Part shown: positions 18,306 to 32,356 of the stretch, one piece after another | Numbering within the stretch: position 1 is the first letter of the stretch | How the letters are laid out: the number at the start of each line of letters is the position of its first letter | Origin: Rhodovulum visakhapatnamense | Lineage (GTDB): Bacteria > Pseudomonadota > Alphaproteobacteria > Rhodobacterales > Rhodobacteraceae | Direction: 5' to 3' | NCBI RefSeq assembly: GCF_004365965.1 | Contig: NZ_SOEB01000014.1 | Location: forward strand, 1 to 64,000 | DNA length: 64,000 nucleotides | Made by a program: the position numbers and the translations under genes | The notes under the pieces: generated by a model | Database searches by the model: none | Seen by the model: the letters and a program-made list of their open reading frames with translations, nothing else | Told to the model about the DNA's origin: nothing

Positions 18306-21300
18306 TCAGTAATCGCGTTCGTAGAAGATCCCGATGCCGGTATCGCCCTCGGCGCCGACATGGCCCTTGACGGTCACATAAGGCGACACGTCGAGATTGA
18401 GGTTGATCTCGCTCTCGCCGTCCGGATTGACGATCACCTGCGAATAGACGTTGTCCGACAGGTACTTGCCCGCACTCAACTCGGTGCCGCCCTCTTCGGT
18501 CGAATTCACGTCCAGATCGTCGAGCCCGGTCGCGCTGCGCAGCGTGCCCAGAATCCCCTGCCCGCCCCGGCCCATCAGCGTGGCCACCGCCGAGGCCAGC
18601 TCGGCCGCCTGCAAGGGCGACAGCGTATCGAGCCCACGGCCGAACAGGATCCGCGAGATCACCTCTTCCTGCGGCAGATCGGGGTCCGACTGGAACGAGA
18701 TATCGGGGGAACTGGCGCGCCCGTCGACGAGGATTCGCGCGGTCACGTCGCCCGACTGGGTCGCCGCCACGAAATGCAGCTGCGGATCGAACGGGCCGGA
18801 CAGCGTCACCTGCCCCTCGTCCAGCGTGAAACGCTGGGCCAGGATGTCGAGCCGCCCGCGGATCAGCTGGAACTGGCCCGTGGCCGCGACATCGGCGGTG
18901 GTCCCGCCCAGAACCAGCCGCCCGCCCAGCTCGGCATCGAGCCCCCGGCCCCGCACGAAGACCTGCGAGGGCGCCGACACCGTCAGGTCCAGCGGATAGG
19001 GCCGTCCGCCCCCGCCGCCGCTGTCGGTCTCGACCAGTCCGGCGCGCACCCGCGTCGCCTGCACCGCCGCCGGGGCGCCCCGATGCACGAGATCGGGCAG
19101 CTCGCCGCCGCCGCCAAGCCCGGTCGAGGGCACGGTTATCTCGGTCCGCCCCAGATCCAGCCGCCCGGCGATCCGCGCGCCGCCGGTCAGCGGGCCGGTG
19201 ACCGTCACGGTGCCATCGACGCTGGTTTCATAAAGCGCCGGGTCCTGCAGGCGCGCCTGCGTCAGCCGGATGGCCAGTTCGGCCGGGAAGGCCCCGGACA
19301 GCGCGATCGGCCCCGCGACGGAGACCTGCCCGCCGCCCAACCGTCCGCCAAGGTCCAGCCGCGCGCGTCCGCCCGACAAATCCACCCGACCGCCGATATC
19401 GGTCAGCGCCGCGCCCAGCGTCGGCGCCGACAGCCGCGCGCCCGAGGTCGTGGCCCGGCCCGACAGCGCCGACAGCCCCGGCGGGCCTTTCAGCGTCAGA
19501 TCGTAGGCCGCCACCCCGTCAAGGCTGCGGGGTTCGATGAACGGATTGGCCAGCGACAGCGGCGCCCGGCCGTTCAGGCTCAGATCGGCCGACGAGGCAT
19601 CCCGGGCCAACGTGCCCGCAACGGCCGCGGTTGTACCGCTCGGCCCGGTCGCGTCGAGTTTCAGGCGCCAGTTGGCCCCGTCGGGCCGGGCCGTGCCCTT
19701 CAGCGCGACCGGCCCCGGGAAGCCCTCGACCAGCAGCGCCAGATCGGACAGCCGTGCCGCCAGATCGAGCGTGCCGTCGCCCGCGCTGTCCTCGGCCTTG
19801 ACGGTGAGCCGTGGCGTCGCGATGTCGACCCGCCCGACCGAGATCGCGCCGCCCTTGCGCGCGCCTTCGGCCTCGATGGTGGTCTTGCCGCCGATCACCC
19901 GGTCGATCTGGGCCAGACCGATGGCCAGCCCCTGCGCCTCGGCGCTCAGCGCGGCCTCGAAATCGCCCTTGACCGCGCCCTGCCCGGTCAGCGTCGCGTC
20001 CACCGATCCCGACAGCCGCCGTCCGGCAAGCCCCGAAAAGACCGACAGCTTCGGCGCGTTCAGCGTCACTTTGCCTTCGGCGGGCAGCGCCGGGTCGCCG
20101 GGGGTCAGCGCGCCCTGGGCGGCAATCTCGGCCCCGGCCGCCCGGGCCTCGAACCGGTCGAGCCTGAGCCGCCCGCCCGATTCCCAGCCGAAGGCGGTGT
20201 CCAGCGTGCCCGCCCCGGTCAGCTTCGGATCGACCAGCGCCAGATCGGGCACCTGCCCGGTCAGGGTCAGCCCGCCCGAGGCGGTCGACAGATCGCCTTT
20301 GCCCTCAAGACGGATGCCCGGAGTTTCAACCTGCAGCGCCTTCAGCGCGGTCCCCTCGGGCCCCCGCGCCGCCGCCACCTGCACCTGTCCCTTCCCGGCC
20401 AGAAGCGGATCGAGCCGGGGCGTGCCGGTCTTGAGATCGGTGGTTTCGGCCGCGAGCGTCAGATCGAAGATCCCGTCCAGCAGCCGGTAGCGCCCGGTCA
20501 GATCGGCCCGGGCCGCGCCGCCCAGCGCCCGGCCCGCCAGCGCCGCAAAGCGCGACAGGTCGTCCAGCGCCGCGCCGATCTCGCCGTCGAAGGGCAGCCC
20601 GTCGGCGGCGGCGCCCAGCGTACCCTTGGCCGTCAGCCGCGCATCGCCCGCCGCGATTGCCAGATCGCTCAGCGAAAACGGCGTCCCGGCCTGCCAGAAG
20701 AGGCGCGCGCGGCCCTCGGCCGTCGCGCCCAGCGCGCGCGCCAGCGCAGGGTCGGCATGGCTCAGCCCGGTGGCGCGGAAGGCGATGTCAGCGTCCAGCG
20801 CCGGAGCCTCGGGCCGGATCGTGCCGGTGCCGGTCAGATCGGCATGGCCAAGCTTCAGCGGGCCGCTGGTCAGCCCGTCCAAAGCGATGTCGGCCTGCCA
20901 GGCCTCGCCGGTCGCGGCATCGAATTTGGCCTCCAGCGACACGCCCTCGACCGTGGTGTCCAGCCCCGAGACCGGCAGCACCACGGGCCCCGACAGCCGC
21001 CCTGACAGATCGACCTTTTCCGGCAGGCCAGTCGGGGCCAGCGCCAGCGTGCCGCCCAGCTGCAAGGCCCCGGTCGCGACTTCGAGCCGCGAGATGTCAA
21101 GCCGGCGGTCGGCGCCGCGCGTGCCCTCGACCGCCAGCTCGGACGAGTCGCCGAAGAAGGGGCGCAGCCGCTCGGCCACCAGCGGGCCGAGATCGCCCGC
21201 AAGGGTCGCGGCAAAGGCCCGGGCCTCGGGCGCATCCTCGGGCGCGGCGATGGTCAGTCTGCCCGCGACCCGGGGCTCGCCCTCGGTCGCCAGCGCCAGA

Positions 21301-22004
21301 TCGGCCGCGAAATCGCTGAGCGGCCCGTCGCCCTCGACCGTCAGCGCCAGCGGCGGCGCGCCCGGCAGACCCGCCAGGCTCGACACGATGCCGCCCGCGC
21401 CTTCGGTCAGCGACAGGTCCAGCGACAGGGTCTGGCTGTCATTGGCATAGGCGGCCTTCAGCGCGAAGGCGCCATCGGCATCGCTGCGGGTGGCGGTGAT
21501 ATCGGCCTCGCCCGCGCCGCCCGCGAGGCTCAGCGCCCCGTCCAGCGCCATCTCGGCCTCCTGGCCGATCAGCGCCTCGCCCAGCACCAGCCGGGGCGTC
21601 CTGACCCGGCCGATGTCGATCGAGACCGGCAGGTCCGGCAGCGCGAAGGGCGTGGCCTCGGATTGCTCGACGCTGGCACCCTCGCCCTTGGGCAGGCGCG
21701 GCAGCAGGATCTCGTCGGCCGACAGTTCCTCGACCTTGATCTCGCCCCGCAGAAGCGCCGCCCGCGACCAGTCGAGCACGGCCCCGCGCACGGTCAGCCA
21801 CACGCCATCCTCGTCGGCGATGGTCAGCTCTTTCAGGGTCGCCCGCGAGGACAGCGCGCCCTCGAATCCCTCGATCCGGATCTCGCGCCCGGCCGAGGAC
21901 AGCTTGTCCTCGAGAAAGCGCACCAGAACGCCGCGGTCGTCCTCCTGCGCGGCCAGCGGCAGCGCGGTGAGAAGAAGCAGAAGAAAACCGAGAAACGCGC
22001 GCAT
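18306..22004 (-). CDS. tamB: TamB, inner-membrane subunit of the translocation and assembly module
   Basis: This 1232-residue AsmA/DUF490-type protein has an N-terminal hydrophobic anchor (MRAFLGFLLLLLTALPLAA). A very long repeated beta-strand region follows, rich in GxxxLxGxxxxDL patterns. The C-terminal TamB domain contains ILFGRGLDTLSPLQAAELA and ends GIGIFYERDY. TamB proteins bridge the periplasm, work with TamA on outer-membrane protein insertion, and have been linked to phospholipid transport. The start overlaps the stop of tamA by one base (TGATG on the minus strand), so the two are translationally coupled. Confidence 0.94.
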   Translation of the reverse strand: MRAFLGFLLLLLTALPLAAQEDDRGVLVRFLEDKLSSAGREIRIEGFEGALSSRATLKELTIADEDGVWLTVRGAVLDWSRAALLRGEIKVEELSADEILLPRLPKGEGASVEQSEATPFALPDLPVSIDIGRVRTPRLVLGEALIGQEAEMALDGALSLAGGAGEADITATRSDADGAFALKAAYANDSQTLSLDLSLTEGAGGIVSSLAGLPGAPPLALTVEGDGPLSDFAADLALATEGEPRVAGRLTIAAPEDAPEARAFAATLAGDLGPLVAERLRPFFGDSSELAVEGTRGADRRLDISRLEVATGALQLGGTLALAPTGLPEKVDLSGRLSGPVVLPVSGLDTTVEGVSLEAKFDAATGEAWQADIALDGLTSGPLKLGHADLTGTGTIRPEAPALDADIAFRATGLSHADPALARALGATAEGRARLFWQAGTPFSLSDLAIAAGDARLTAKGTLGAAADGLPFDGEIGAALDDLSRFAALAGRALGGAARADLTGRYRLLDGIFDLTLAAETTDLKTGTPRLDPLLAGKGQVQVAAARGPEGTALKALQVETPGIRLEGKGDLSTASGGLTLTGQVPDLALVDPKLTGAGTLDTAFGWESGGRLRLDRFEARAAGAEIAAQGALTPGDPALPAEGKVTLNAPKLSVFSGLAGRRLSGSVDATLTGQGAVKGDFEAALSAEAQGLAIGLAQIDRVIGGKTTIEAEGARKGGAISVGRVDIATPRLTVKAEDSAGDGTLDLAARLSDLALLVEGFPGPVALKGTARPDGANWRLKLDATGPSGTTAAVAGTLARDASSADLSLNGRAPLSLANPFIEPRSLDGVAAYDLTLKGPPGLSALSGRATTSGARLSAPTLGAALTDIGGRVDLSGGRARLDLGGRLGGGQVSVAGPIALSGAFPAELAIRLTQARLQDPALYETSVDGTVTVTGPLTGGARIAGRLDLGRTEITVPSTGLGGGGELPDLVHRGAPAAVQATRVRAGLVETDSGGGGGRPYPLDLTVSAPSQVFVRGRGLDAELGGRLVLGGTTADVAATGQFQLIRGRLDILAQRFTLDEGQVTLSGPFDPQLHFVAATQSGDVTARILVDGRASSPDISFQSDPDLPQEEVISRILFGRGLDTLSPLQAAELASAVATLMGRGGQGILGTLRSATGLDDLDVNSTEEGGTELSAGKYLSDNVYSQVIVNPDGESEINLNLDVSPYVTVKGHVGAEGDTGIGIFYERDY

Positions 22005-23803
22005 CAGAAGGCCTGCCCGATACCGATATAGAACTGAACCCCGTCGCCGGTATCGCCGTCGACCGGCGCCGCGATGTCGAAGCGGATCGGGCCGATCCCG
22101 GTGTCATAGCGCAGCCCGAGCCCCGCGCCCGAATGCCAGTCGCCGTCCGACACCCACGAGTCGGGCCCGACGAAGCCCGCATCGTAGAAGGCCACCATCT
22201 GGATCGCGCGGGTGACGCCGATCCGCGCCTCGCCCGACAGCCCGACGAAGGACCGCCCGCCGATCCGGTCGCCATTCGGCAGATCGACCGCGAGCGACTG
22301 ATAGGGCTGGCCGCGCACCGTGCCGCCGCCGCCCGAAAAGAACAAAAGCGCGGGCGGGACGCCATCGCTCGACGCGCCGACCACGGACCCGATCTGCGCC
22401 CGCCCGGCCAGCACGACCCGGGACCCGAGCGGCTGGTAGATCCGCGCATCGGCCTTGATCAGCGCGCCGCTTTCGGCCGCGCCGCCCACTGCCAGAAGCG
22501 GGGTCACGCTGCCGTCGAGATAAAACCCGTCATGGGCGTCGAGCGCATCGTCGCGGCGGTCCCAGGTCAGGCTGACGGGAAAGGTCAGATGGGTCAGTTG
22601 CCGGTCGCCGAGATCGTCGCTGACATCGGAATAGCGCAACAGCACCCCGGCCTCGCCGCTCAGATGCGGCGTGAAGATCCGGGTCAGGCCGCCGCCCACC
22701 CGGGCGTTGGTCTCGGTATAATCGGGCTCGTCCAGATCCTCGACGGCGCCCAGCAGGTAAAGCCCGGTATCGGCGTAGATCACCGCCGGGCGGTCGAAGC
22801 GGGCCGACAGCGACAGGTCCTCGCCGCCGCCCTCCTGCCCGCCGATCCCCGCGATCTCGAAATCGAAGCGCAGCCGCTCGGCCCCGCCCAGAAGGTTTCG
22901 ATGCATCCAGTAGCCCGAGACCGTCGCGCCCTCGAGCGACGAGAGCTCGATCCCGAAGCCCAGGCGGCGTTTCTTCTGGTCGACCACCTCCAGCCCGATA
23001 TCCATGCTGTTGCCGGGTCCGAGCGTCTCGGCCTCGGTCAGGCGCACCGACCGGAAAGCGCCGGTCCGGCGCAGCCGCTCGGCGCTTCGGTCCAGCGCCT
23101 CGGGATCGAAGGGTTCGCCCATCGGCAGCCCGGCAATGGCCCGAAGCCGCTCTTCGCGGACCCGCGAGCCCGAGGCGATCACGAGATCGCCGAACCGGAC
23201 CGCAGGCCCGGGATCGAGCCGCACCCGGGCGGCCAGCGTTGCCCCCGGGTGATTGGCGATCAGGCTTTGTCCCGCGACCCGGGCCCTGGCATGACCGGCG
23301 GTACGCCAGCCATCGACCCCGGCCTCGGCCGCAGCGCGAATGGTGCCCGCCTCGGCGGGCCGCCCCGGGGCAAACCCCTCGGGCAGGTCGGTGCCGGGGG
23401 CCAGCGGGTCGATCTGGGCTTCGGAGAAGGCGAAAGGCCGCCCGGTCGCCACCCGGATCTCGACCCGGCCGATCCGGGCGGGCACCGACAGGGGCGACAG
23501 ATCGGCCGCCTCGCGCCCGTCGAGGGTGACATGGACCTCGGGACCGTAATAGCCGCGCGCATAGAGCACGCCGACAAGACGGGCGTAATCTGCCCGGGCG
23601 GCGGCAAAGATGTCCTGCGCGCTGGCATCGGGTTCGCTGGCCGCCTGCAGCGACAGAGCCGAGTTCTCAAGCGCCTGCCGCACCGCGTCGGGTGCGCCGG
23701 GCGCGCTCAGCACGGCTTGGGTCGCGGCGGCCGGTCGCGGGGCGACAGACAGCAGGATCGCCGTCAGGACGGCGAACGAGGGAATGCAACGCGAGTCGAT
23801 CAA
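22004..23803 (-). CDS. tamA: TamA, Omp85-family outer-membrane protein
   Basis: This 599-residue outer-membrane barrel protein has N-terminal POTRA domains and an Omp85 C-terminal barrel ending in YIGIGQAF, with a terminal Phe as BAM substrates require. A signal peptide is visible (LTAILLSVAPRPAAA). The start is a TTG at 23803; no ATG or GTG keeps the signal peptide, and the ribosome site is weak. It is coupled directly to tamB. pucC ends 121 bases upstream on the same strand; a functional link with the puc genes is not implied. Confidence 0.93.
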   Translation of the reverse strand: MIDSRCIPSFAVLTAILLSVAPRPAAATQAVLSAPGAPDAVRQALENSALSLQAASEPDASAQDIFAAARADYARLVGVLYARGYYGPEVHVTLDGREAADLSPLSVPARIGRVEIRVATGRPFAFSEAQIDPLAPGTDLPEGFAPGRPAEAGTIRAAAEAGVDGWRTAGHARARVAGQSLIANHPGATLAARVRLDPGPAVRFGDLVIASGSRVREERLRAIAGLPMGEPFDPEALDRSAERLRRTGAFRSVRLTEAETLGPGNSMDIGLEVVDQKKRRLGFGIELSSLEGATVSGYWMHRNLLGGAERLRFDFEIAGIGGQEGGGEDLSLSARFDRPAVIYADTGLYLLGAVEDLDEPDYTETNARVGGGLTRIFTPHLSGEAGVLLRYSDVSDDLGDRQLTHLTFPVSLTWDRRDDALDAHDGFYLDGSVTPLLAVGGAAESGALIKADARIYQPLGSRVVLAGRAQIGSVVGASSDGVPPALLFFSGGGGTVRGQPYQSLAVDLPNGDRIGGRSFVGLSGEARIGVTRAIQMVAFYDAGFVGPDSWVSDGDWHSGAGLGLRYDTGIGPIRFDIAAPVDGDTGDGVQFYIGIGQAF

Positions 23804-23924
23804 ATCCGGCCCCTTTTCCCGGCATACTTAGCCAAGACGGCGGCAGGGGAAACCCCGGGGGCCGGATTTTGCCGCGAAAGGGCGTGCCGCCGCCGCGCCT
23901 GGCGCGGGGGCACGGGCGCCCGCG

Positions 23925-25334
23925 TCAGTCGGGCGCGTTCTCGATGCCGAAGGCGCGGCTCAGCATCAGCCGGTAGCCGACGACGATGGTCGCCACCAGC
24001 AGCGCCAGCTCGATCGCGTAGACGAAGAAATAGGGCGTGGCCGCGCCGAACATGTCGCCGATGGGCGAATGCAGCACCGCATCGCGGAAGACGCCGCCCA
24101 GCGCGATCCCGGCACCGGCCGAGGTCGCCTGCACCGCGCCCCAGGCCCCGAGCGCCAGCCCGACCTGGGCCTTCGGCGCCGAGCGCATGGTGGCCGTCAG
24201 CGTGCCATGGCTGAACAGCCCCGCCCCGAAACCCGCCAGCATCGTGCCCAGCACGAAGATCGGTTCGGATTGCAGCGTCGCCGAGAAGGTGATCGCGGCG
24301 AAGGCAGGCAGGCCCACCAGCGCGCCCCAACCGGCCATCGCCATCGGGTCATAGCCCCGCGACAGCACCCGAGAGGCCCAGGCGAAGCCGACCAGCGTGC
24401 CACCCGCGACCGAGGCGGTCAGCTTGGTGGTCGCCGCCACCGACATGTCCAGAACCTGACCCCCGAAGGGTTCCAGCAGAACGTCCGACAGGCCGAAGCC
24501 CAGCGTGCCGAGCCCGATCACCCACAAGAGCCTGCGGGCGTTGGGGCCGCGCGTGAACAGCCCCCAGGCCTCGCGAAAGCTGGGTTCCGGCTCGCTTTCG
24601 GGGCGCGGCCTGGCGCGGGTACGGTCGCGCGCCTCCATCTTCCACAGCGCGATGACGTTGAAGACCATAGTCGCGACGGCCGCGCCCTGGATCACCTTGA
24701 TCAGCTTGGCGTGGTAGAAGTCCTCCAGCCACATCCCGAACAGCAGGGCACTGACGATCATGCCGACCAGCAGCATGACATACATCAGTCCGACGACATT
24801 GGGCTGGTCCTCGCGCGGCGCGAGGTCGGTCGCCAGCGCCAGCCCCACGGTCTGCACCGTGTGCACGCCCGCGCCGACCAGCAGGAACGAGATGGCGGCA
24901 CTGAGAATACCAATCCATTCCGGCGCACCGGCCGCACTTTCCTGCCCCGACAACACGATCAGCGCGAAGGGCATGATGGCGAAGCCACCCCATTGCAGCA
25001 ACGTGCCCTTCCAGATGTAGGGCACCCGCCGCCAGCCCAGCGCCGAGCGGTGCGTATCGGACTTGAAGCCGATCAGCGCGCGGAAGGGTGCGAACAGAAG
25101 CGGCAGGGAAATCATGATGCCGACGATCGATGCCGGGACTTCGAGCTCGACGATCATCACCCGGTTCAGGGTGCCGACCAGCAGCACCATCGCCATGCCG
25201 ACAGAGACCTGGAACATCGACAGCCGCAACAGGCGGCTGAGCGGCAGGTCTTCGCTGGCGGCATCTGCAAAGGGGAGGAATCGGGGGCCGACCGTGGCGA
25301 TACGGTTTACCGCCATCTTGCTCAGTCGATTCAT
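23925..25334 (-). CDS. pucC: PucC, light-harvesting 2 assembly / BChl delivery protein (MFS-like)
   Basis: PucC is a 12-helix membrane protein needed for normal LH2 levels. It belongs to the bacteriochlorophyll delivery branch of the major facilitator family. The protein contains FAPFRALIGFKSDTHRSALG, WRRVPYIWKGTLLQWGG and VGLALATDLAPREDQPNVVG, hallmarks of PucC/LhaA. I chose ATG 25334 (MNRLSKMAVN, 469 residues) because GGAG lies 9 bases before it. A GTG at 25349 would add five residues. It is the third gene of a pucBAC operon, separated from pucA by hairpins that probably reduce its expression. Confidence 0.95.
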   Translation of the reverse strand: MNRLSKMAVNRIATVGPRFLPFADAASEDLPLSRLLRLSMFQVSVGMAMVLLVGTLNRVMIVELEVPASIVGIMISLPLLFAPFRALIGFKSDTHRSALGWRRVPYIWKGTLLQWGGFAIMPFALIVLSGQESAAGAPEWIGILSAAISFLLVGAGVHTVQTVGLALATDLAPREDQPNVVGLMYVMLLVGMIVSALLFGMWLEDFYHAKLIKVIQGAAVATMVFNVIALWKMEARDRTRARPRPESEPEPSFREAWGLFTRGPNARRLLWVIGLGTLGFGLSDVLLEPFGGQVLDMSVAATTKLTASVAGGTLVGFAWASRVLSRGYDPMAMAGWGALVGLPAFAAITFSATLQSEPIFVLGTMLAGFGAGLFSHGTLTATMRSAPKAQVGLALGAWGAVQATSAGAGIALGGVFRDAVLHSPIGDMFGAATPYFFVYAIELALLVATIVVGYRLMLSRAFGIENAPD

Positions 25335-25410
25335 GCGGTCACACTCCACACGCGGCCCGACACAGGGGGCCCGTGTCCTATTGCCCGCTGGGGCGCGTTT
25401 CCAGTAGGGC

Positions 25411-25428
25411 CGGGGCGTCGCCGCCCCG
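25411..25428 (-). terminator. Intra-operon hairpin between pucA and pucC
   Basis: CGGGGCG (25411-25417) pairs with CGCCCCG (25422-25428) around a 4-base loop. There is no long T run. In other purple bacteria a hairpin at this place stabilises the abundant pucBA message and lowers pucC expression. That role is inferred here from position and structure. Confidence 0.65.
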
Positions 25429-25490
25429 AAGGCACGAAGGCCGAGGCTGAAACCCCGGCCCTCGCAAATTCCTGTCTCGAGCCGAAAGGC

Positions 25491-25682
25491 TTACGAGAGC
25501 AGCGTGGTGGCGTTGGTGACCAGCGACGCGGCTTCGAACGAGCCGGCGTAGTAGTCGCCCATCCAGCCGGTGGTCAGAACCAGCATCAGGTGCACCAGGA
25601 AGGAAGCGATGGCGCAGGCAACCAGGAAGAGCGGGATACCAACGGTGGGCTTCACGACGAGCCACATTTTCGCGTTGTTCAT
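25491..25682 (-). CDS. pucA: Light-harvesting 2 alpha polypeptide
   Basis: This 63-residue antenna polypeptide has one transmembrane helix. It opens MNNAKMWLVVKPTVGIPLF. His31 in FLVHLML is the axial ligand for the B850 bacteriochlorophyll. Tyr44-Tyr45 in GDYYAG are the hydrogen-bonding residues found in B800-850 complexes rather than B800-820 types. The C-terminal extension (FEAASLVTNATTLLS) is longer than in Rhodobacter sphaeroides. It lies 21 bases downstream of pucB. Confidence 0.97.
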   Translation of the reverse strand: MNNAKMWLVVKPTVGIPLFLVACAIASFLVHLMLVLTTGWMGDYYAGSFEAASLVTNATTLLS

Positions 25683-25703
25683 GATCTATATCCTCTCTCT
25701 AGA

Positions 25704-25859
25704 TTAGCCGAGCCACGGGGTGGCGATGGCAGCCAGGAAGTGGGCGAACAGCGCGATCGCGCCGAACACGCGGGTGCCGTCGATGAGTTGCTTGTGCACT
25801 TCTTCGGCTTCGGCAAGGGTCAGGCCGGTCGGCCAGACTTTGTCCATATCGTCAGTCAT
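25704..25859 (-). CDS. pucB: Light-harvesting 2 beta polypeptide
   Basis: This 51-residue antenna polypeptide starts [20 protein letters not shown]. It has one transmembrane helix; His40 in [13 protein letters not shown] ligates a B850 bacteriochlorophyll and His22 lies in the B800 region. GGGGAG precedes the ATG on the minus strand, which fixes this start; the longer open frame (to 26000) has no antenna features. It is the first gene of the puc operon and lies downstream of a tandem PpsR-type operator at 25995-26037. Confidence 0.97.
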
Positions 25860-25994
25860 ATTGTCGTCTCCCCAATATGGTTTTCGACTGTGGTACGTGC
25901 AGAGCCTGCACGCAGGCGTCGACAACGCAGACCGGAGATATCCTTCGCGATTTCTCGCTGGGCTACCCGACCCGGCATCGTCACAAGCAAACGA

Positions 25995-26037
25995 TGTCAC
26001 AAGCGATTGACGTTGGCAATGTCAACGCAGCCTGACA
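25995..26037 (-). promoter_or_regulatory. Tandem PpsR/CrtJ-type operator of the puc promoter
   Basis: TGTC-N10-GACA is perfect at 26020-26037. A second copy with one mismatch (TGTC-N10-GACG) lies at 25995-26012, offset by 25 bases. PpsR/CrtJ represses photosynthesis genes under oxygen by cooperative binding to two such sites. On the minus strand TTGACA (26025 to 26020) could be the -35 element of pucB, inside the perfect site. No good -10 is seen. Confidence 0.8.
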
Positions 26038-26250
26038 TGGCCCCAGAATCGTGCGACATATCGAACCCTCTTGACAGCACGTCGCAGCCCCTGCGGCGCC
26101 CCGTCCTGCGACCGTCAGGACCCTTGAATTTTCCACACGCAGGTGGGGTAATATCAAAGCGCCCAACTGCAATTCGCCGTACTCGTCGGGCCCGGACCGA
26201 AGCTCTGCTCCTGTCGTCGACGATCGCGGACGCAACAACCTGGAGGATCC

Positions 26251-26574
26251 ATGAAATATTTCTGGGACGACTGGATGCCGAAGCTTTCCAGCAAGCAACG
26301 CCTGCTCACCGACGTCGAGACCGACGGCGAAAGCACCACCACGCCCTTCTCGGACGCGCTTGGCTTCAAATGCCTGTCCGAGGACAACACCTCGAAAACC
26401 GAACTGATGACCAACAACCCGACCCCGCTGTCGCGTCAGATGAACTGGCCGCTGCTGGGCGGCATGGGCGAAGGCCATGTCGAGCTGAAGACTGCGGATC
26501 CGACCCCGCTGTCGTCGCGCATGGGCTGGCCGCTCCTGTCCAAACGCGCTCATTACGCGGTGGCCGAGAAGTAA
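26251..26574 (+). CDS. Unrecognised puc-linked protein with three 27-residue repeats
   Basis: This 107-residue soluble-looking protein has GGAGG 4 bases before its ATG. I do not recognise it. Three repeats start at residues 31, 58 and 85, each exactly 27 residues apart: TPFSDALGFKCLS, TPLSRQMNWPLLG and TPLSSRMGWPLLS. The spacer ELxTxxP is also shared by the first two units. The N-terminus is aromatic and acidic (MKYFWDDWMPKL). There is no signal peptide or transmembrane helix. It is divergent from pucB across a 391-base region holding PpsR-type sites, so a photosynthesis role is likely but unproven. A strong terminator follows. One possibility is an LH2-associated polypeptide; similarity to PucE of Rhodobacter capsulatus would need testing. 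Confidence 0.85.
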   Translation: MKYFWDDWMPKLSSKQRLLTDVETDGESTTTPFSDALGFKCLSEDNTSKTELMTNNPTPLSRQMNWPLLGGMGEGHVELKTADPTPLSSRMGWPLLSKRAHYAVAEK

Positions 26575-26599
26575 TTCGGCCCCCGTTCGGCGCAGATGC

Positions 26600-26630
26600 G
26601 CCCGCGCGATCCCCCGCGCGGGCGTTTTTT
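26600..26630 (+). terminator. Intrinsic terminator after the repeat-protein gene
   Basis: GCCCGCGCG (26600-26608) pairs with CGCGCGGGC (26615-26623) around a 6-base loop and is followed by six T (26625-26630). It ends the transcript of the 107-residue protein gene. Confidence 0.9.
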
Positions 26631-26888
26631 GTTGCCCGGCCCCCCCCGGTGCCCCCCCCCTCTGCCCCCCTTTTTGCCCGTCGCTCCTGCCCCCCCCTGC
26701 CCAGCGGTCCGACCCGGGCTGTCCGCTCGCCCGCCGGGCGTCCGCGCGGGCCTGTGCCGCGCCGCAGCAGGATGGCCGCGTTTTGCCCGACTCTTGCCCG
26801 GACGCCGCCCGGTTTCTGCGATCTGGTGAGACCCGCCGGACGCGCGCGTGTCCCGGCGCCCAGCCCATGCCGCGAAAGGAGCCCGACG
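26631..26888. other. C-tract-rich spacer, G-quadruplex potential on the minus strand
   Basis: Between the terminator and the microprotein gene, the plus strand carries C runs of 8, 9, 6, 3 and 8 bases within 26640-26697. No gene is seen in the spacer. The complementary strand has five G runs with short loops, enough for a G-quadruplex. The promoter of the microprotein gene should lie between about 26700 and 26870, but no clear -35/-10 pair is visible. Confidence 0.6.
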
Positions 26889-27002
26889 ATGGCCAACCCC
26901 ACCTCTTCCCACCCGCGTCCGGTGTCGCCGAAGGGCGACTCGGCCCGGCCGCTTCCCGAACCCACCAAAGGCGCGGTGTTCAAGGACTGGGCCAGCATCT
27001 GA
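26889..27002 (+). CDS. 37-residue basic, Pro-rich microprotein
   Basis: This short reading frame starts MANPTSSHPRPVSPKGDS and ends GAVFKDWASI. AAAGGAG lies about 6 bases before the ATG, and a hairpin terminator starts 9 bases after the stop, so it has a full expression unit. No membrane segment or known domain is seen. It is the second small gene next to the puc operon, and its compact ending (KGAVFKDWASI) looks selected. Function unknown. Confidence 0.7.
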   Translation: MANPTSSHPRPVSPKGDSARPLPEPTKGAVFKDWASI

Positions 27003-27010
27003 CCCGACAG

Positions 27011-27053
27011 AAAGAAGGGGCCGGTTCCAGCGGAACCGACCCCTTCCTTTTTC
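27011..27053. terminator. Intrinsic terminator between the microprotein gene and ndk
   Basis: GGGGCCGGTTCC and GGAACCGACCCC form a 12-base stem with one mismatch around a 3-base loop. CTTCCTTTTT follows on the plus strand. On the other strand the stem is preceded by A-rich sequence, so it may also serve convergent ndk. Confidence 0.85.
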
Positions 27054-27108
27054 CGCCGCGCGCCAATGTGGCACCGCGGCGAGTACGGTCTGCGACTCGA
27101 CCGGCGAC

Positions 27109-27531
27109 TCAGCCGACCAGTTCGAGACCCGAGAAGAAATAGGCGATCTCTTCCTTGGCGGTGTCCGCACCGTCCGACCCGTGGACCGAGTTCTCGCCGA
27201 TCGACAGGGCGAATTCCTTGCGGATGGTGCCCTCGGCGGCTTCGGCCGGGTTGGTCGCGCCCATCACTTCGCGATTCTTGGCAATCGCGTCCTCGCCTTC
27301 CAGCACCTGCACGACGATCGGCTCGGAGGCCATGAACTCGCAGAGTTCGTCGTAGAAGGGCCGCTCCTTGTGCACCGCGTAGAAGACGCCGGCCTGGGCC
27401 TTGGTCAGGTGAATGCGCTTCTGCGCCACGATGCGCAGGCCCGCGGCTTCGAGCTTGGCGTTGATCGCGCCGGTCAGGTTGCGGCGGGTCGCGTCGGGCT
27501 TGATGATCGAGAAGGTGCGTTGAATCGCCAT
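27109..27531 (-). CDS. ndk: Nucleoside diphosphate kinase
   Basis: Ndk balances nucleoside triphosphate pools by moving phosphate from ATP through a phospho-histidine. The 140-residue protein has the usual length. It starts [14 protein letters not shown] and contains [11 protein letters not shown] and the active-site histidine in [22 protein letters not shown]. It lies convergent to the 37-residue microprotein gene and divergent from the AGCS symporter gene. Confidence 0.97.
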
Positions 27532-27710
27532 GTCTTGCGTCCTCTTGGGCGCCGCCCGGGGACGGCGGGGAAAAATCGCGGCCCTGCTAGCACGCGCCCC
27601 GGCCCTTGAAAACAGGCTTTCGCCGCAGTCGCGGGCGAGCCGCGCGGGAACCGGCCCCGCCCGCTCACGTTGGGGTGCGTGTTCGCGCGCCTCTGTGAAA
27701 AGGGCTTTTC

Positions 27711-29156
27711 ATGACCGTGATTGTAGATTTCCTGAACACCGTACTCTGGGGCTATGTCCTGATCTGGGGGCTGATCGGAGCCGGGCTTTACCTGACCATC
27801 CGCCTCGGCGGGCTCCAGTTCCGCCACTTCCCCGAATTCATCCGCGTCGTCGTCAGCTCCAGCGAGTCGGACCGCAGCGGTATCACCCCGCTGCAGGCCC
27901 TGACCGTCAGCCTCGCCAGCCGGGTCGGCACCGGCAATCTCGCGGGCGTCGCGGTCGCGATCTATCTGGGCGGGCCGGGCGCGGTCTTCTGGATGTGGAT
28001 GGTGGCGCTGGTCGGCATGGCCACGGCCTATGCCGAATCGACGCTTGCCCAGCTTTACAAGGTGCGCAACGCCGACCGCCAGTATCGTGGCGGCCCGGCC
28101 TATTACATCTGGCACGGGCTCAATGCCAAATGGCTGGGCTATGTGTTCTGCTTCTTCTTCCTCTGTTCCTTCGGGCTGATCTTCAACGCGGTCCAGTCGA
28201 ATTCCATCGCCGACGCCGCCGACGGCGCTTTCGGCATCCCGAAACTCGCGACCGGCATCGCCATCGGCGCGCTGACGGGCGTGGTGATCTTCGGCGGCAT
28301 CCGCTCGATTGCCAGCGTCGCCGAACGGGTCGTGCCGATCATGGCCGGGATCTACCTGCTGGTCGCGGCCTATGTGCTGGTCGTGCACGCGACCGAGATC
28401 CCGGGCCTTCTGGCGCTGATCGTCAAAAGCGCCTTCGGCATCGACCAGGCCGTGGGCGGATTCGCCGGGGGCTTTGCGGCGGCTGCGCTGAACGGCGTCA
28501 AGCGCGGGCTGTTCTCGAACGAGGCCGGCATGGGCTCGGCCCCGCATATCGCGGCCGTCGCCGTGCCCGACCCGCATCACCCGTCGAGCCAAGGCATGGT
28601 GCAGGGGCTTGGCGTCTTCATCGACACGCTGCTGATCTGTACCGCGACCGCGCTGATGATCCTGCTGTCGGGCGTGGTCGATTACGGCCCCGACGGAATC
28701 ACCGGAACCGAGCTGACCCAGAACGCGCTGTCGGCCCATATCGGCGCCTTCGGCCCGCCCTTCATCGCGGTGGCGATTCTTTTCTTCGCCTTCACCTCGA
28801 TCATCGGCAACTACGCCTATTCCGAAAACGTGATGGAGTTTCTCGGGCTTGGCCGCGGTGTGCCGCTGGCGATCCTGAAGGCCGCACAGGTCGGCATGGT
28901 GATCTGGGGCGCGGTGCAGCCGGTGACCAAGGTCTTCAACTTCGCCGATGCCTCGATGGCGACCATGGCCACCATCAACCTGGTCGCGCTGATTCTGCTG
29001 TCGGGCACGGTGATCCGGCTGACGAAGGACTATTTCGAACAGCGCAAGATCCGGGCCGAGCCCTATTTCCGGCTGTCGAAGCATCCCGAGATCGACCCGA
29101 AGGGAATCGACCGCACGATCTGGAACGAGGATGTTGCCGCCGAGCGGGGCGCCTGA
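27711..29156 (+). CDS. Alanine/glycine:cation symporter (AGCS) family protein
   Basis: This 481-residue inner-membrane transporter imports alanine or glycine with Na+ or H+. Signature segments include TIRLGGLQFRHFPEF, ASRVGTGNLAGVAVAI, RGLFSNEAGMGSAPHIAA and SIIGNYAYSENVMEF. Length and about ten hydrophobic segments match the family. AAAAGG precedes the ATG. The exact substrate and cation are not determined by sequence. Confidence 0.95.
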   Translation: MTVIVDFLNTVLWGYVLIWGLIGAGLYLTIRLGGLQFRHFPEFIRVVVSSSESDRSGITPLQALTVSLASRVGTGNLAGVAVAIYLGGPGAVFWMWMVALVGMATAYAESTLAQLYKVRNADRQYRGGPAYYIWHGLNAKWLGYVFCFFFLCSFGLIFNAVQSNSIADAADGAFGIPKLATGIAIGALTGVVIFGGIRSIASVAERVVPIMAGIYLLVAAYVLVVHATEIPGLLALIVKSAFGIDQAVGGFAGGFAAAALNGVKRGLFSNEAGMGSAPHIAAVAVPDPHHPSSQGMVQGLGVFIDTLLICTATALMILLSGVVDYGPDGITGTELTQNALSAHIGAFGPPFIAVAILFFAFTSIIGNYAYSENVMEFLGLGRGVPLAILKAAQVGMVIWGAVQPVTKVFNFADASMATMATINLVALILLSGTVIRLTKDYFEQRKIRAEPYFRLSKHPEIDPKGIDRTIWNEDVAAERGA

Positions 29157-29227
29157 CCCGGTTGTCCCCGACCCGGCTTTTCCTGACCCGGCTTTCCCCG
29201 GGGCCCGCACCCTGTTAAAGCCGGGCC

Positions 29228-31090
29228 ATGCTGCGCATCGACGATCTTCGCTATTCCATCGAGGGGCGCCCTTTGTTCGAGGGCGCCTCTGCCGTCATTC
29301 CCGATGGCCACAAGGTCGGCCTGATCGGCCGGAACGGGGCCGGGAAGACCACGCTCTTCCGGCTGATCCGTGGCGAGCTGACGCTCGATTCGGGTGCGAT
29401 CGCCTTCCCGCGCCACGCCCGGATCGGCGGCGTCGCGCAAGAGGTGCCCTCGTCCGAGACCTCGTTGCTGGACACGGTGCTGGCCGCCGATACCGAACGC
29501 GCGAGCCTCATGGCCGAGGCCGAGACCGCGACCGACCCCCACCGCATCGCCGAAATCCAGACCCGTCTGGCCGATATCGACGCCTGGTCGGCCGAGGCGC
29601 GGGCCGCCTCGATCCTGAGGGGGCTCGGGTTCACCGAAGCCCAGCAACACATGCCCTGTTCGGACTTTTCGGGCGGCTGGCGGATGCGGGTCGCGCTGGC
29701 GGGTGTGCTGTTCGCGCGCCCCGACCTGCTGCTTCTGGACGAGCCGACCAACTATCTGGACCTCGAAGGCGCGCTCTGGCTTGAAAGCTATCTGGCGCGC
29801 TACCCCCATACGGTAATCCTGATCTCGCACGACCGCGGGCTTCTGAACCGTGCGGTCGGCCATATCCTGCATCTCGAAAACCGCAAGCTCACGCTGTACG
29901 CGGGCGGCTACGACGCCTTCGCCCGGGCGCGTGCCGAACAGCGCGCAGTGCAGGCCGCCGAGGCCAAGAAACAGGACCTGCGGCGCGCGCATCTGCAAAG
30001 CTTCGTCGACCGCTTCCGCTACAAGGCCTCGAAGGCCAAGCAGGCCCAGGCCCGCATCAAGATGCTGGAGCGGATGACCCCCATCGCCGCGCCCGAGGAT
30101 CTGGCGCGCGTGGTCTTCACCTTCCCCCAGCCCGACGAGCTGTCGCCGCCCATCGTGGCGCTGGAAGGGGCCGCGGTCGGCTATGACGGCACGCCCGTCC
30201 TGCAACGCCTGTCGCTGAGAATCGACCAGGACGACCGGATCGCGCTTCTGGGCCGGAACGGCGAGGGCAAGTCGACATTTTCCAAGCTGCTGGCGGGCAA
30301 GCTCGACAAGCTCTCGGGCCGGATGACCACGGCCAACCGGCTGAGAATCGGCTATTTCGCCCAGCATCAGGTGGACGAGCTGCATCTGGACGAAACCCCT
30401 CTGGACCACCTGCGCCGCGAACGCCCCGACGAGGCGCCCGCGAAGCTGCGCGCGCGCCTGGCCGGATTCGGTCTGGGCGCCGACCAGGCGGAAACCGAGG
30501 TCGGCCGGCTTTCGGGCGGGCAGAAGGCGCGGCTGTCGCTGCTTTTGGCCACGCTCGACGCGCCGCATCTGCTGATCCTCGACGAGCCCACCAACCACCT
30601 CGACATCGAAAGCCGCGAGGCGCTGTCCGAGGCGCTGAACGACTATTCGGGCGCGGTGATCCTCGTCAGCCACGACATGCACCTGCTGTCGATGGTGGCC
30701 GACCGGCTCTGGCTGGTGCAGGGCGGCCGGGTCACGCCCTACGAGGACGACCTCGACGCCTATCGCCGGATGCTGCTGGGCACCGACCTGCCCGAAAAGG
30801 TCGCGGGCACCGACCGGCCCGCGCGGCCCGAAGCGCCCAAACGCGCCTCGCGGGACGAGATCCTGACGCTGCGCGCCGAGGTCCGCAAATGCGAGCAACG
30901 GGTCGAGAAACTGGACGAGATGCGCAGTCGCTTGCAGGAAAAGCTGGCCGATCCCGAGCTTTACGACCCCGCCCGCACCGACGAGCGGATCCTCTGGCAG
31001 AAGAAATTCGCCGAGGCCGAAGAGGCGATGGAGCGGGCCGAGGCCTTGTGGATGGCCGCGCTGGAAAAGCTCGAATCGGCCGAGACCTGA
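29228..31090 (+). CDS. ABC-F family ATP-binding protein
   Basis: This 620-residue cytoplasmic protein has two ABC ATPase domains and no membrane part. Domain 1 has GRNGAGKTT, FSGGWRMRVALAG and LLLDEPTNYLD. Domain 2 has GRNGEGKST, LSGGQKARLSLL and LILDEPTNHLD. The basic linker between them (RFRYKASKAKQAQARIK) contacts tRNA in ABC-F proteins, and a charged coiled coil ends the chain. Such proteins act on ribosomes, like YheS or Uup. The domain layout is closest to YheS, but the exact ortholog is not certain. Confidence 0.94.
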   Translation: MLRIDDLRYSIEGRPLFEGASAVIPDGHKVGLIGRNGAGKTTLFRLIRGELTLDSGAIAFPRHARIGGVAQEVPSSETSLLDTVLAADTERASLMAEAETATDPHRIAEIQTRLADIDAWSAEARAASILRGLGFTEAQQHMPCSDFSGGWRMRVALAGVLFARPDLLLLDEPTNYLDLEGALWLESYLARYPHTVILISHDRGLLNRAVGHILHLENRKLTLYAGGYDAFARARAEQRAVQAAEAKKQDLRRAHLQSFVDRFRYKASKAKQAQARIKMLERMTPIAAPEDLARVVFTFPQPDELSPPIVALEGAAVGYDGTPVLQRLSLRIDQDDRIALLGRNGEGKSTFSKLLAGKLDKLSGRMTTANRLRIGYFAQHQVDELHLDETPLDHLRRERPDEAPAKLRARLAGFGLGADQAETEVGRLSGGQKARLSLLLATLDAPHLLILDEPTNHLDIESREALSEALNDYSGAVILVSHDMHLLSMVADRLWLVQGGRVTPYEDDLDAYRRMLLGTDLPEKVAGTDRPARPEAPKRASRDEILTLRAEVRKCEQRVEKLDEMRSRLQEKLADPELYDPARTDERILWQKKFAEAEEAMERAEALWMAALEKLESAET

Positions 31091-31093
31091 GCG

Positions 31094-31714
31094 ATGGATC
31101 TGGGCTTTCACGTCAGCGCCTTCATCACCCTCTTCGTGATCGTCGATCCGATCGGGCTGGCGCCGGTCTTCGTGGCGCTGACCCAGGGCATGGGCACCCG
31201 CCAGCGCCGCGCCATCGGCCTGCGCGCCGCCGCCATCGCGGTCGGGCTGCTGACGCTGTTCGGGATCTTCGGGGAAAAGGTGCTGGCCTTTGCCGGGATC
31301 TCGATGCCCGCCTTCCGCATCGCGGGCGGCATCCTGCTGTTCCTGACCGCGCTCGAGATGCTGTTCGAGCGGCGCAGCAAGAAGCGCGAGGACCGCGCCC
31401 ATGAAGAGCTGCCCGACCCGTCGGTCTTTCCGCTGGCAACCCCGCTGATGGCCGGGCCGGGCGCGATGGCGACGATGATCCTTCTGAACGGACAGATCGA
31501 CCGCGCGCCGCTGGACATGCTGCTGATCCATCTGTCGATGATTGCGGTGATCGGGATCTGTGTCGCGCTGTTCCTGGCGGCAAGTCTTCTGGAACGGGCG
31601 CTGGGCCATACCGGCATCGTCGTCGTCTCGCGGCTGCTGGGAATGCTGCTGGCCGCCCTCTCGGTGCAGTTCATCCTCGACGGGCTCAGGGATTTCGGCC
31701 TTGCCCCGGCCTGA
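31094..31714 (+). CDS. MarC family (UPF0056) membrane protein
   Basis: This 206-residue protein has about six transmembrane helices. Family segments are FVIVDPIGLAPVF near the start, RIAGGILLFLTALEMLF, and PLATPLMAGPGAMATMILL in the middle. The once-proposed link with multiple antibiotic resistance was not upheld, and the function is not known. It starts 4 bases after the ABC-F stop, so the two genes are probably co-transcribed. Confidence 0.93.
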   Translation: MDLGFHVSAFITLFVIVDPIGLAPVFVALTQGMGTRQRRAIGLRAAAIAVGLLTLFGIFGEKVLAFAGISMPAFRIAGGILLFLTALEMLFERRSKKREDRAHEELPDPSVFPLATPLMAGPGAMATMILLNGQIDRAPLDMLLIHLSMIAVIGICVALFLAASLLERALGHTGIVVVSRLLGMLLAALSVQFILDGLRDFGLAPA

Positions 31715-31774
31715 GACCCTTCGAGTTTCGCACCCCGCCGCCTATATCGGTCCTATCCCCGGGAAAGGAGTGTC

Positions 31775-32356
31775 ATGACCGGCGACGATTTCGGACGGCT
31801 GATCTATCTTGTCCTGCTGGCCACGGTCATCGCGGGCTATTTCCTGCTGTCGCACCGTCGGCGGCTTGGTCAGGTCGCCCAGCAGGCAGCGATCTGGGGG
31901 CTGATCTTCATCGGCGTGATCGCGGGATTCGGGCTTTGGTCCGACATCCGCAACGACGTGGCCCCGCGCCAGACCGTCTTTGCCGAAGAGAACCGGATCG
32001 AGGTGCCCCGCGCGCCCGATGGCCATTACTACATGACCCTGCGGATCAACGATGTCCCGATCCGCTTTGTCGTCGATACCGGCGCGACCGATGTGGTGCT
32101 GACCCGCGACGATGCCGAACGGGTGGGGATCGACCCGCGCAGCCTGCAATTCTTCGGCGAGGCCCACACCGCCAATGGCGCGGTCCGCACCGCGCCGGTC
32201 CGGCTCGATGTGGTCGAGCTGGGGCCGGTCACCGACCGCAACCTGCGCGCCTTCGTCAATTCCGGCGAAATGCGCGAATCGCTTCTGGGCATGGCCTATC
32301 TCAACCGGTTCGAGCGGATCGAAGTCGTCCGCGACCGGATGATCCTGACGCGCTGA
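31775..32356 (+). CDS. Retropepsin-like aspartic protease, TIGR02281 type
   Basis: This 193-residue protein has a membrane anchor near the N-terminus (LIYLVLLATVIAGYFLL) and a second hydrophobic segment. A single-domain aspartic protease fold follows, with the active site FVVDTGATDVVLT and the flap-like AHTANGAVRTAPVRLD. ESLLGMAYLNRFERIEV closes the fold. Such proteins act as dimers in alphaproteobacteria; their substrates are mostly unknown. GGAAAGGAG precedes the ATG. Confidence 0.9.
   Translation: MTGDDFGRLIYLVLLATVIAGYFLLSHRRRLGQVAQQAAIWGLIFIGVIAGFGLWSDIRNDVAPRQTVFAEENRIEVPRAPDGHYYMTLRINDVPIRFVVDTGATDVVLTRDDAERVGIDPRSLQFFGEAHTANGAVRTAPVRLDVVELGPVTDRNLRAFVNSGEMRESLLGMAYLNRFERIEVVRDRMILTR

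Follow-up and report, generated by a model that had tools for sequence, protein, structure and literature searches.

The LH2 complex is the textbook two-polypeptide antenna, and the locus examined here raises the question of what a small repeat-built protein encoded beside the LH2 genes of Rhodovulum visakhapatnamense might do. The window analyzed, a stretch of 64,000 nucleotides from contig NZ_SOEB01000014.1, carries on its minus strand the genes for LH2 beta (pucB, 25704–25859; Pfam LHC, 2.6e-9), LH2 alpha (pucA, 25491–25682; Pfam LHC, 7.5e-9), and a member of the LH2 assembly factor family (pucC, 23925–25349; Pfam PUCC, 2.1e-151). On the plus strand, divergent from pucB, the repeat protein gene occupies 26251–26574 (an ATG start codon, 107 codons, and a TAA stop codon). 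A GGAGG ribosome-binding site at 26242–26246 (+), which does not vary among the 15 intergenic regions that were aligned, precedes it and a terminator-like stem-loop followed by a T run lies 3' of it at 26598–26625 (+), in agreement with the complete gene described in the initial annotation. An Rfam scan of positions 20000–32000 gave no match. Between the repeat gene and ndk, a 37-codon ORF (MANPTSSHPRPVSPKGDSARPLPEPTKGAVFKDWASI, 26889–27002, plus strand) was also observed, and tblastn found it at the same place in seven of 15 other Rhodovulum loci (L046, L047, L049, L051, L053, L059, and L060).

The encoded protein contains three units that begin at T31, T58, and T85, spaced 27 residues (81 bases) apart as had been claimed. 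Their cores, recognized from the translation, the alignment, and a lag analysis, are TPFSDALGFKCLS (26341–26379), TPLSRQMNWPLLG (26422–26460), and TPLSSRMGWPLLS (26503–26541), all on the plus strand. At a lag of 27, 20 of 80 residues are identical, a value that none of 5000 shuffles reached at any lag from 10 to 53, and the best 13-residue window holds 10 identities (again 0 of 5000 shuffles); the internal repeat is far beyond chance. Units 2 and 3 have 9 of 13 core residues in common, whereas the unit 1 core shares 4 of 13 with unit 2 and 6 of 13 with unit 3, and unit 1 is regarded as degenerate. The units are preceded by an N-terminal W-rich stretch, YFWDDWMPKLSSKQRLLTDV (26257–26316, plus strand), which is conserved in alignment A2 and overlaps a helix predicted by AlphaFold2 (AF2) with low confidence at residues 4–16. 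The protein lies above no curated cut-off in Pfam or NCBIfam, consistent with the remark in the initial annotation that its family was not recognized. When it was used as a query, PDB sequences returned nothing convincing (best E 0.5) and phages returned no matches.

Several candidate resemblances were rejected. Weak Pfam matches (TPP_enzyme_M_2, CBP_BcsR, DUF488-N3a, and others) fell below the cut-off wherever a cut-off was shown. The best of these, to the MenD middle domain, reached E 2.7e-6 and 27.7 bits against a cut-off of 30.1 in the family member L083 and spanned 22 residues around WPLL; among the matches listed with coordinates, MenD and BcsR similarities covered 10–22 residues around WPLL in 10 of 33 members. 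Mimicry of the LH2-alpha N-terminus (PTVGLPLFLG) was not supported, since the score obtained with a position matrix in six PucA sequences was equalled by between 214 and 2586 of 3000 shuffles. Nor did the repeat core behave as an amphipathic membrane helix (median percentile 0.44 of shuffles over 107 cores), and the class A N-terminus was not clearly supported in this role (median percentile 0.71). PucE and PucD of Rhodobacter capsulatus are precedents for non-alpha/beta genes of a puc operon, and PufX, protein-U, and other LH1-RC accessory polypeptides are small accessory membrane proteins of antenna complexes. Unlike the membrane proteins PufX and protein-U, the repeat protein has no membrane span by hydropathy (maximum 19-residue value of 0.67 over the 16 class A members defined below). 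Searching titles and the beginnings of abstracts found no literature on the repeat gene or on the distant relatives described below, which is no proof of absence from print, and excerpts of PMC12700997, PMC5783997, PMC12654162, and PMC10890935 contained nothing bearing on the argument.

The nearest named relative of the window protein is from Rhodovulum kholense (96 percent identity), and six of its seven named matches are from Rhodovulum, with the other from a Rhodobacteraceae MAG. The host genome encodes three further family members, at C19, C5, and C1. A profile built from three host-genome proteins (A1) resulted in two to six matches in each of 16 Rhodovulum genomes and none in 45 genomes of other genera; all 16 Rhodovulum genomes possess reaction-centre genes and LH2-type pucB. 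The 52 Rhodovulum proteins collected were sorted by simple sequence rules into class A (16 proteins, one per genome, puc-type), class B (24 proteins with a C-terminal tail of the FxRxIxTGE type), and class C (11 short, basic proteins), with one protein outside these classes (L083 in G010). Consecutive units in class A proteins are separated by 27 residues (15 times), 26 (13), 35 (2), or 51 (1), and in class B mostly by 26 (36 of 62, a count that takes in some false tail cores). Since the spacing varies among relatives, the exact 27 of the window protein is not a conserved trait, and the proposal that exact spacing implies selection is not supported. The alignment columns invariant in class A include T31, S34, S61, W66, P86, S88, G92, W93, and L96, and the serines S34, S61, and S88 are present in all 16 proteins. 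The nine closest class A pairs (dS < 0.3) gave omega values of 0.12–0.27; over all 120 pairs the median was 0.54 (range 0.12–1.00), an estimate weakened by saturation and alignment.

In 15 of 16 Rhodovulum genomes the class A gene lies next to pucBAC in divergent orientation, with ndk on its other side in 14 of these, and conserved linkage to puc is the rule in this genus. Here and below, ndk, abcF, ispG, DsbA-like, transporter (MFS), selD-like, rnd, rpoD, dnaG, and cbbY are names assigned by eye with no search. In G010 the puc neighbour is retained and the other flank differs; in G009 the class A-like gene adjoins ispG and a DsbA-like gene, away from pucBAC. As these two rearranged genomes split one to one, selection on the linkage is unproven. 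At the puc locus of G009 (L103), the puc promoter block is kept and an MFS transporter gene stands at the position divergent from pucBAC. In a different genus, G164 (L116) has the order pucCAB-ndk-abcF; pucB and ndk are approximately 310 bp apart and the repeat gene is missing, so the gene was either gained in the Rhodovulum line or lost in the G164 line; the former is favoured because the gene is absent elsewhere in the family. The excerpt of PMC9230146 names the Rhodovulum puc operon and does not mention the repeat gene.

Each of the 15 intergenic regions contains one perfect PpsR-type site (TGT-N12-ACA; 26020–26037 in the window), where 0.065 would be expected from mononucleotide shuffles. 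The initial annotation had described PpsR-type sites in the region between the repeat gene and pucB; a perfect site is indeed present, but there is one rather than several. Of 29 other genera that show no repeat gene at this position, 27 have the same type of site in the 450 bases preceding pucB (for L128, one of the 29, the available stretch is 143 bases), and the site is therefore assigned to the puc promoter and does not serve as support for the repeat gene. Nearer the repeat gene, a TTGA...TGGGGTAAT element at 26124–26154 (+), found in 14 of 15 regions aligned and read by eye and absent in L057, could be the promoter of the repeat gene. No promoter common to all repeat classes was evident in alignments inspected by eye.

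To trace the family beyond the genus, a profile was built from 33 Rhodovulum sequences (A3). Among 394 genomes of the family, with at most 11 candidates scored per genome, the 392 non-Rhodovulum genomes yielded no convincing member; a borderline match in G383 (E 0.0069) was attributed to chance, as this translation has no repeat. In a sample of the same size, Photo_RC genes are present in 167 of 394 genomes. In a 295-genome sample, pucB was found in 37 other genera, which gave no convincing repeat-family member, and all 37 lie within the Photo_RC sample of 394, to which the A3-search sample is apparently identical. The repeat gene is accordingly dispensable for LH2 as such. When A3 was searched against 289 genomes of the class, it matched proteins in G471 (4.2e-9), G529 (1.0e-6), G652 (1.2e-6), G434 (1.4e-4), and G554 (2.5e-4), which belong to four other alphaproteobacterial families; against 299 genomes of the phylum, G434 alone matched again besides the host genome. 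A3 was built solely from Rhodovulum sequences, and no information on puc genes entered the search that found these five.

The matched proteins are unnamed and are here called X (L154–L158, with L161 and L162 added below). The five are complete and 229–246 residues long. Each has an N-terminal domain of approximately 100 residues, which in one of the five matches YflT below threshold (E 0.0014), and a C-terminal part that strings together cores such as TPLSSTFGLRVLS and RSSFGLPLLS. The five loci share the arrangement pucB-pucA-X, and pucC lies downstream in each: it follows X directly in G529, G652, and G434, a second pucBA is inserted between X and pucC in G554, and pucC is reached after about 2.3 kb in G471. 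A profile of the five X proteins (A7), searched in 17 genomes of the order of G652, recovered G652 and G554 and added G965 and G970. In both new genomes X follows pucBA; G970 continues with a second pucBA and then pucC, and in G965 the sequence ends. X is thus located directly after pucBA in seven of seven cases, with pucC downstream in six of six that have enough sequence, although these are not seven independent cases because four of them are from one family (f16). This gene linkage favours the initial guess of an LH2-associated protein. Relatives were found in 16 phototrophic Rhodovulum genomes, where paralogs also lie off puc, and in puc operons, with no sign of the wide spread in non-phototrophs away from puc that would have spoken against such a role.

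Aligned with A7 by hhalign, A3 gave a probability of 97.7 (E 1.4e-12) and class C a probability of 95.9 (E 6.3e-9), both single-pair values that are helped by repeats. At the level of sequence, the homology of the Rhodovulum repeat family to X is secure, and the link of the family to LH2 genes is well supported. Common to the X and Rhodovulum proteins are the repeat core [TA]PLSSxxGxPLLS and the LH2 gene neighbourhood. They differ in that the 107-residue Rhodovulum protein consists of the repeat part alone, lacking the N-terminal domain of approximately 100 residues; in that the X gene sits inside the operon between pucA and pucC, whereas the Rhodovulum gene is divergent from pucB; and in that many X units are 16 or 25 residues apart, whereas the Rhodovulum units are mostly 26–27 apart. 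The pucA–pucC gap in the window, 141 bp, leaves no room for an X-type gene.

A small accessory polypeptide of LH2 is known from Rhodopseudomonas palustris. According to the excerpt of PMC9618040, the cryo-EM structure of this LH2 contains a third polypeptide, gamma, that runs as an extended ribbon near the cytoplasmic side; serines in its six repeats act as ligands of six additional bacteriochlorophylls, and the authors found gamma in Rhodopseudomonas only. The repeat period of gamma (RPA1495, PDB 7zcu_S, 97 residues) is 16. Lags of 16 and 32 are present in the X proteins of G529, G652, and G471, and those of G434, G554, and G970 have no clear 16-residue period. Gamma aligned to A7 with E 2.2e-4 and a probability of 45 (hhalign). 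As a control, the unit columns of gamma were permuted with composition and period kept, and the summed score of gamma over these six X proteins was reached by 3 of 500 permuted gammas (individually 4 for G529, 0 for G652, 28 for G434, 9 for G554, 22 for G471, and 17 for G970). The suggestion in the initial annotation to compare gamma polypeptides was therefore apt, as the X set resembles gamma beyond the unit-permuted controls, and kinship of X to gamma is suggestive. Direct comparison of gamma with A3 gave an hhalign probability of 0.2, the class A sum was equalled by 149 of 500 permuted gammas and indicates no direct resemblance, and the class B sum was reached by 14 of 500, a hint. The link from Rhodovulum to gamma is consequently a chain, with a secure step to X, a suggestive step from X to gamma, and no direct match.

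Like gamma, the Rhodovulum protein is small and repeat-built, with charged linkers and no transmembrane helix, and both have a core of G-x-P-L-[LI] with a serine nearby; it would likewise be an accessory of LH2. The serine directly precedes G in gamma and stands four residues before G in the Rhodovulum core, and the period is 16 against 26–27. On the best reading of these data, the protein is a gamma-like ribbon or adaptor that associates with LH2 and docks, unit by unit, on its cytoplasmic face. Confidence in this reading is held at a moderate level because class B and C paralogs lie off puc. Each TP[LF]SxxMxWPLLS unit would dock on one alpha-beta unit, or on a neighbouring pair, at the cytoplasmic face; the multivalent chain would lie along the LH2 ring as the R. 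palustris ribbon does; and extra bacteriochlorophyll may be ligated through the invariant core serine. We infer binding of LH2 or pigment by the repeat protein and would extend a similar role to Rhodovulum, although the gene there diverges from the operon and does not lie within it.

The repeat protein is small and probably disordered. AF2 modelled the window protein with a mean pLDDT of 48.5 and a pTM of 0.16 from eight sequences, a shallow alignment that may itself lower confidence, and placed further low-confidence short helices at the unit cores (residues 32–36, 60–63, and 87–90). A class B protein gave the same picture with an added tail helix (pLDDT 51.3, seven sequences). The low confidence fits disorder of the free chain and does not address a bound form. 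This picture would agree with a multivalent string of docking elements. Counting against the ribbon reading are the absent direct match to gamma, the spacing of 26–27, the three of six X proteins with no clear period of 16, the off-puc paralogs, the G009 exception, the 37 pucB genera lacking a member, and the median omega of 0.54. A projection map of Rhodovulum sulfidophilum LH2 from the 1990s reportedly showed a plain nine-fold ring.

The main rival is a transient assembly scaffold acting with PucC, in which the repeats would gather nascent LH2 polypeptides or PucC during ring assembly and would be absent from the mature complex. The gene for X sits between pucBA and pucC, interruption of pucC greatly lowers LH2 assembly according to the excerpt of PMC4949548, X differs from a pure ribbon in its extra N-terminal domain with the sub-threshold YflT match, and the B-type paralogs have a cationic helix at their end that is strongly amphipathic (median percentile 0.996 of shuffles). 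However, X resembles gamma, which is an LH2 subunit, and the 37 other genera with pucB have no convincing member, and on balance we consider a scaffold somewhat unlikely.

Off-puc paralogs speak for a further alternative, a general disordered adaptor of Rhodovulum with another partner, such as a membrane surface or a carbon-fixation protein, for which the puc position would be incidental in this genus. Three further classes are encoded away from puc. In nine of 11 genomes the class C gene lies no more than 1 kb from a cbbY-like gene that belongs to a RuBisCO cluster, the class B2 gene adjoins a TetR-type gene in 11 of 14, and class B1 genes were seen in at least five different settings in nine genomes (comM-like/gshB, selD-like, rnd-like, and others, with names mostly assigned by eye). 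In addition, where the puc surroundings are rearranged, one genome keeps the neighbourhood and the other does not. Against this, all seven relatives found outside the genus are in puc operons and the first search was blind to puc genes. We consider a general adaptor quite improbable. A lineage-specific gene with no selected role is very improbable, since, despite the absence of a convincing member in 392 other genomes of the family (one borderline chance match) and the related gene order of L116 that has no repeat gene, all 16 Rhodovulum genomes carry class A, which has invariant core residues and shows low omega between its closest pairs.

The paralogous loci have further features of their own. 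At L089:5209–5478 the class C gene overlaps the end of the cbbY-like gene, tail to tail, in a RuBisCO-rpe-pgp-cbbY cluster whose RuBisCO we take to be form II. The varied contexts of the B1 loci (L061, L064, L074–L076, L078, L079, L081, and L009) give the impression of a gene that has moved. The class B2 genes are preceded by a leader of the form GACGCGGCGAAAAA.CACCTTG ... GAAGCCAA ... TTGGTGGA, read by eye, which is strongly conserved in 14 of 15 loci (not L080; for example, L008 upstream of 9204) and is possibly a promoter plus a structured 5' leader. Three B2 proteins (L073:5445–5852, L077:5842–6222, and L082:5929–6303) have extra N-terminal repeats of approximately 10 residues (TNPQVETKTF), which recall the ILGEPKLxSK-type runs of the X proteins from G554 and G970. 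Plasmids searched with one class B protein and one X protein gave no matches. The off-puc Rhodovulum paralogs could represent alternative ribbons, or else the partner of the family could be something common to several systems.

A broader proposal, which we advance tentatively, is that LH2-gamma represents a single branch of a larger family of antenna ribbon subunits in alphaproteobacteria, to which the pucBA-X-pucC and Rhodovulum proteins also belong. Such subunits would wrap the cytoplasmic face of LH2 and might ligate extra bacteriochlorophyll via invariant core serines, and the paralogs would serve as alternative ribbons for different antenna states. If this is true, gamma would not be confined to Rhodopseudomonas, and, with a puc-linked family spread over several alphaproteobacterial families, extra ribbons for pigment binding or assembly would be a more widespread, testable trait of purple bacterial antennas. 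The repeat protein adjoining the RuBisCO genes (class C) merits separate attention, and the X and Rhodovulum repeat genes provide concrete genes with which antenna ribbons may be tested.
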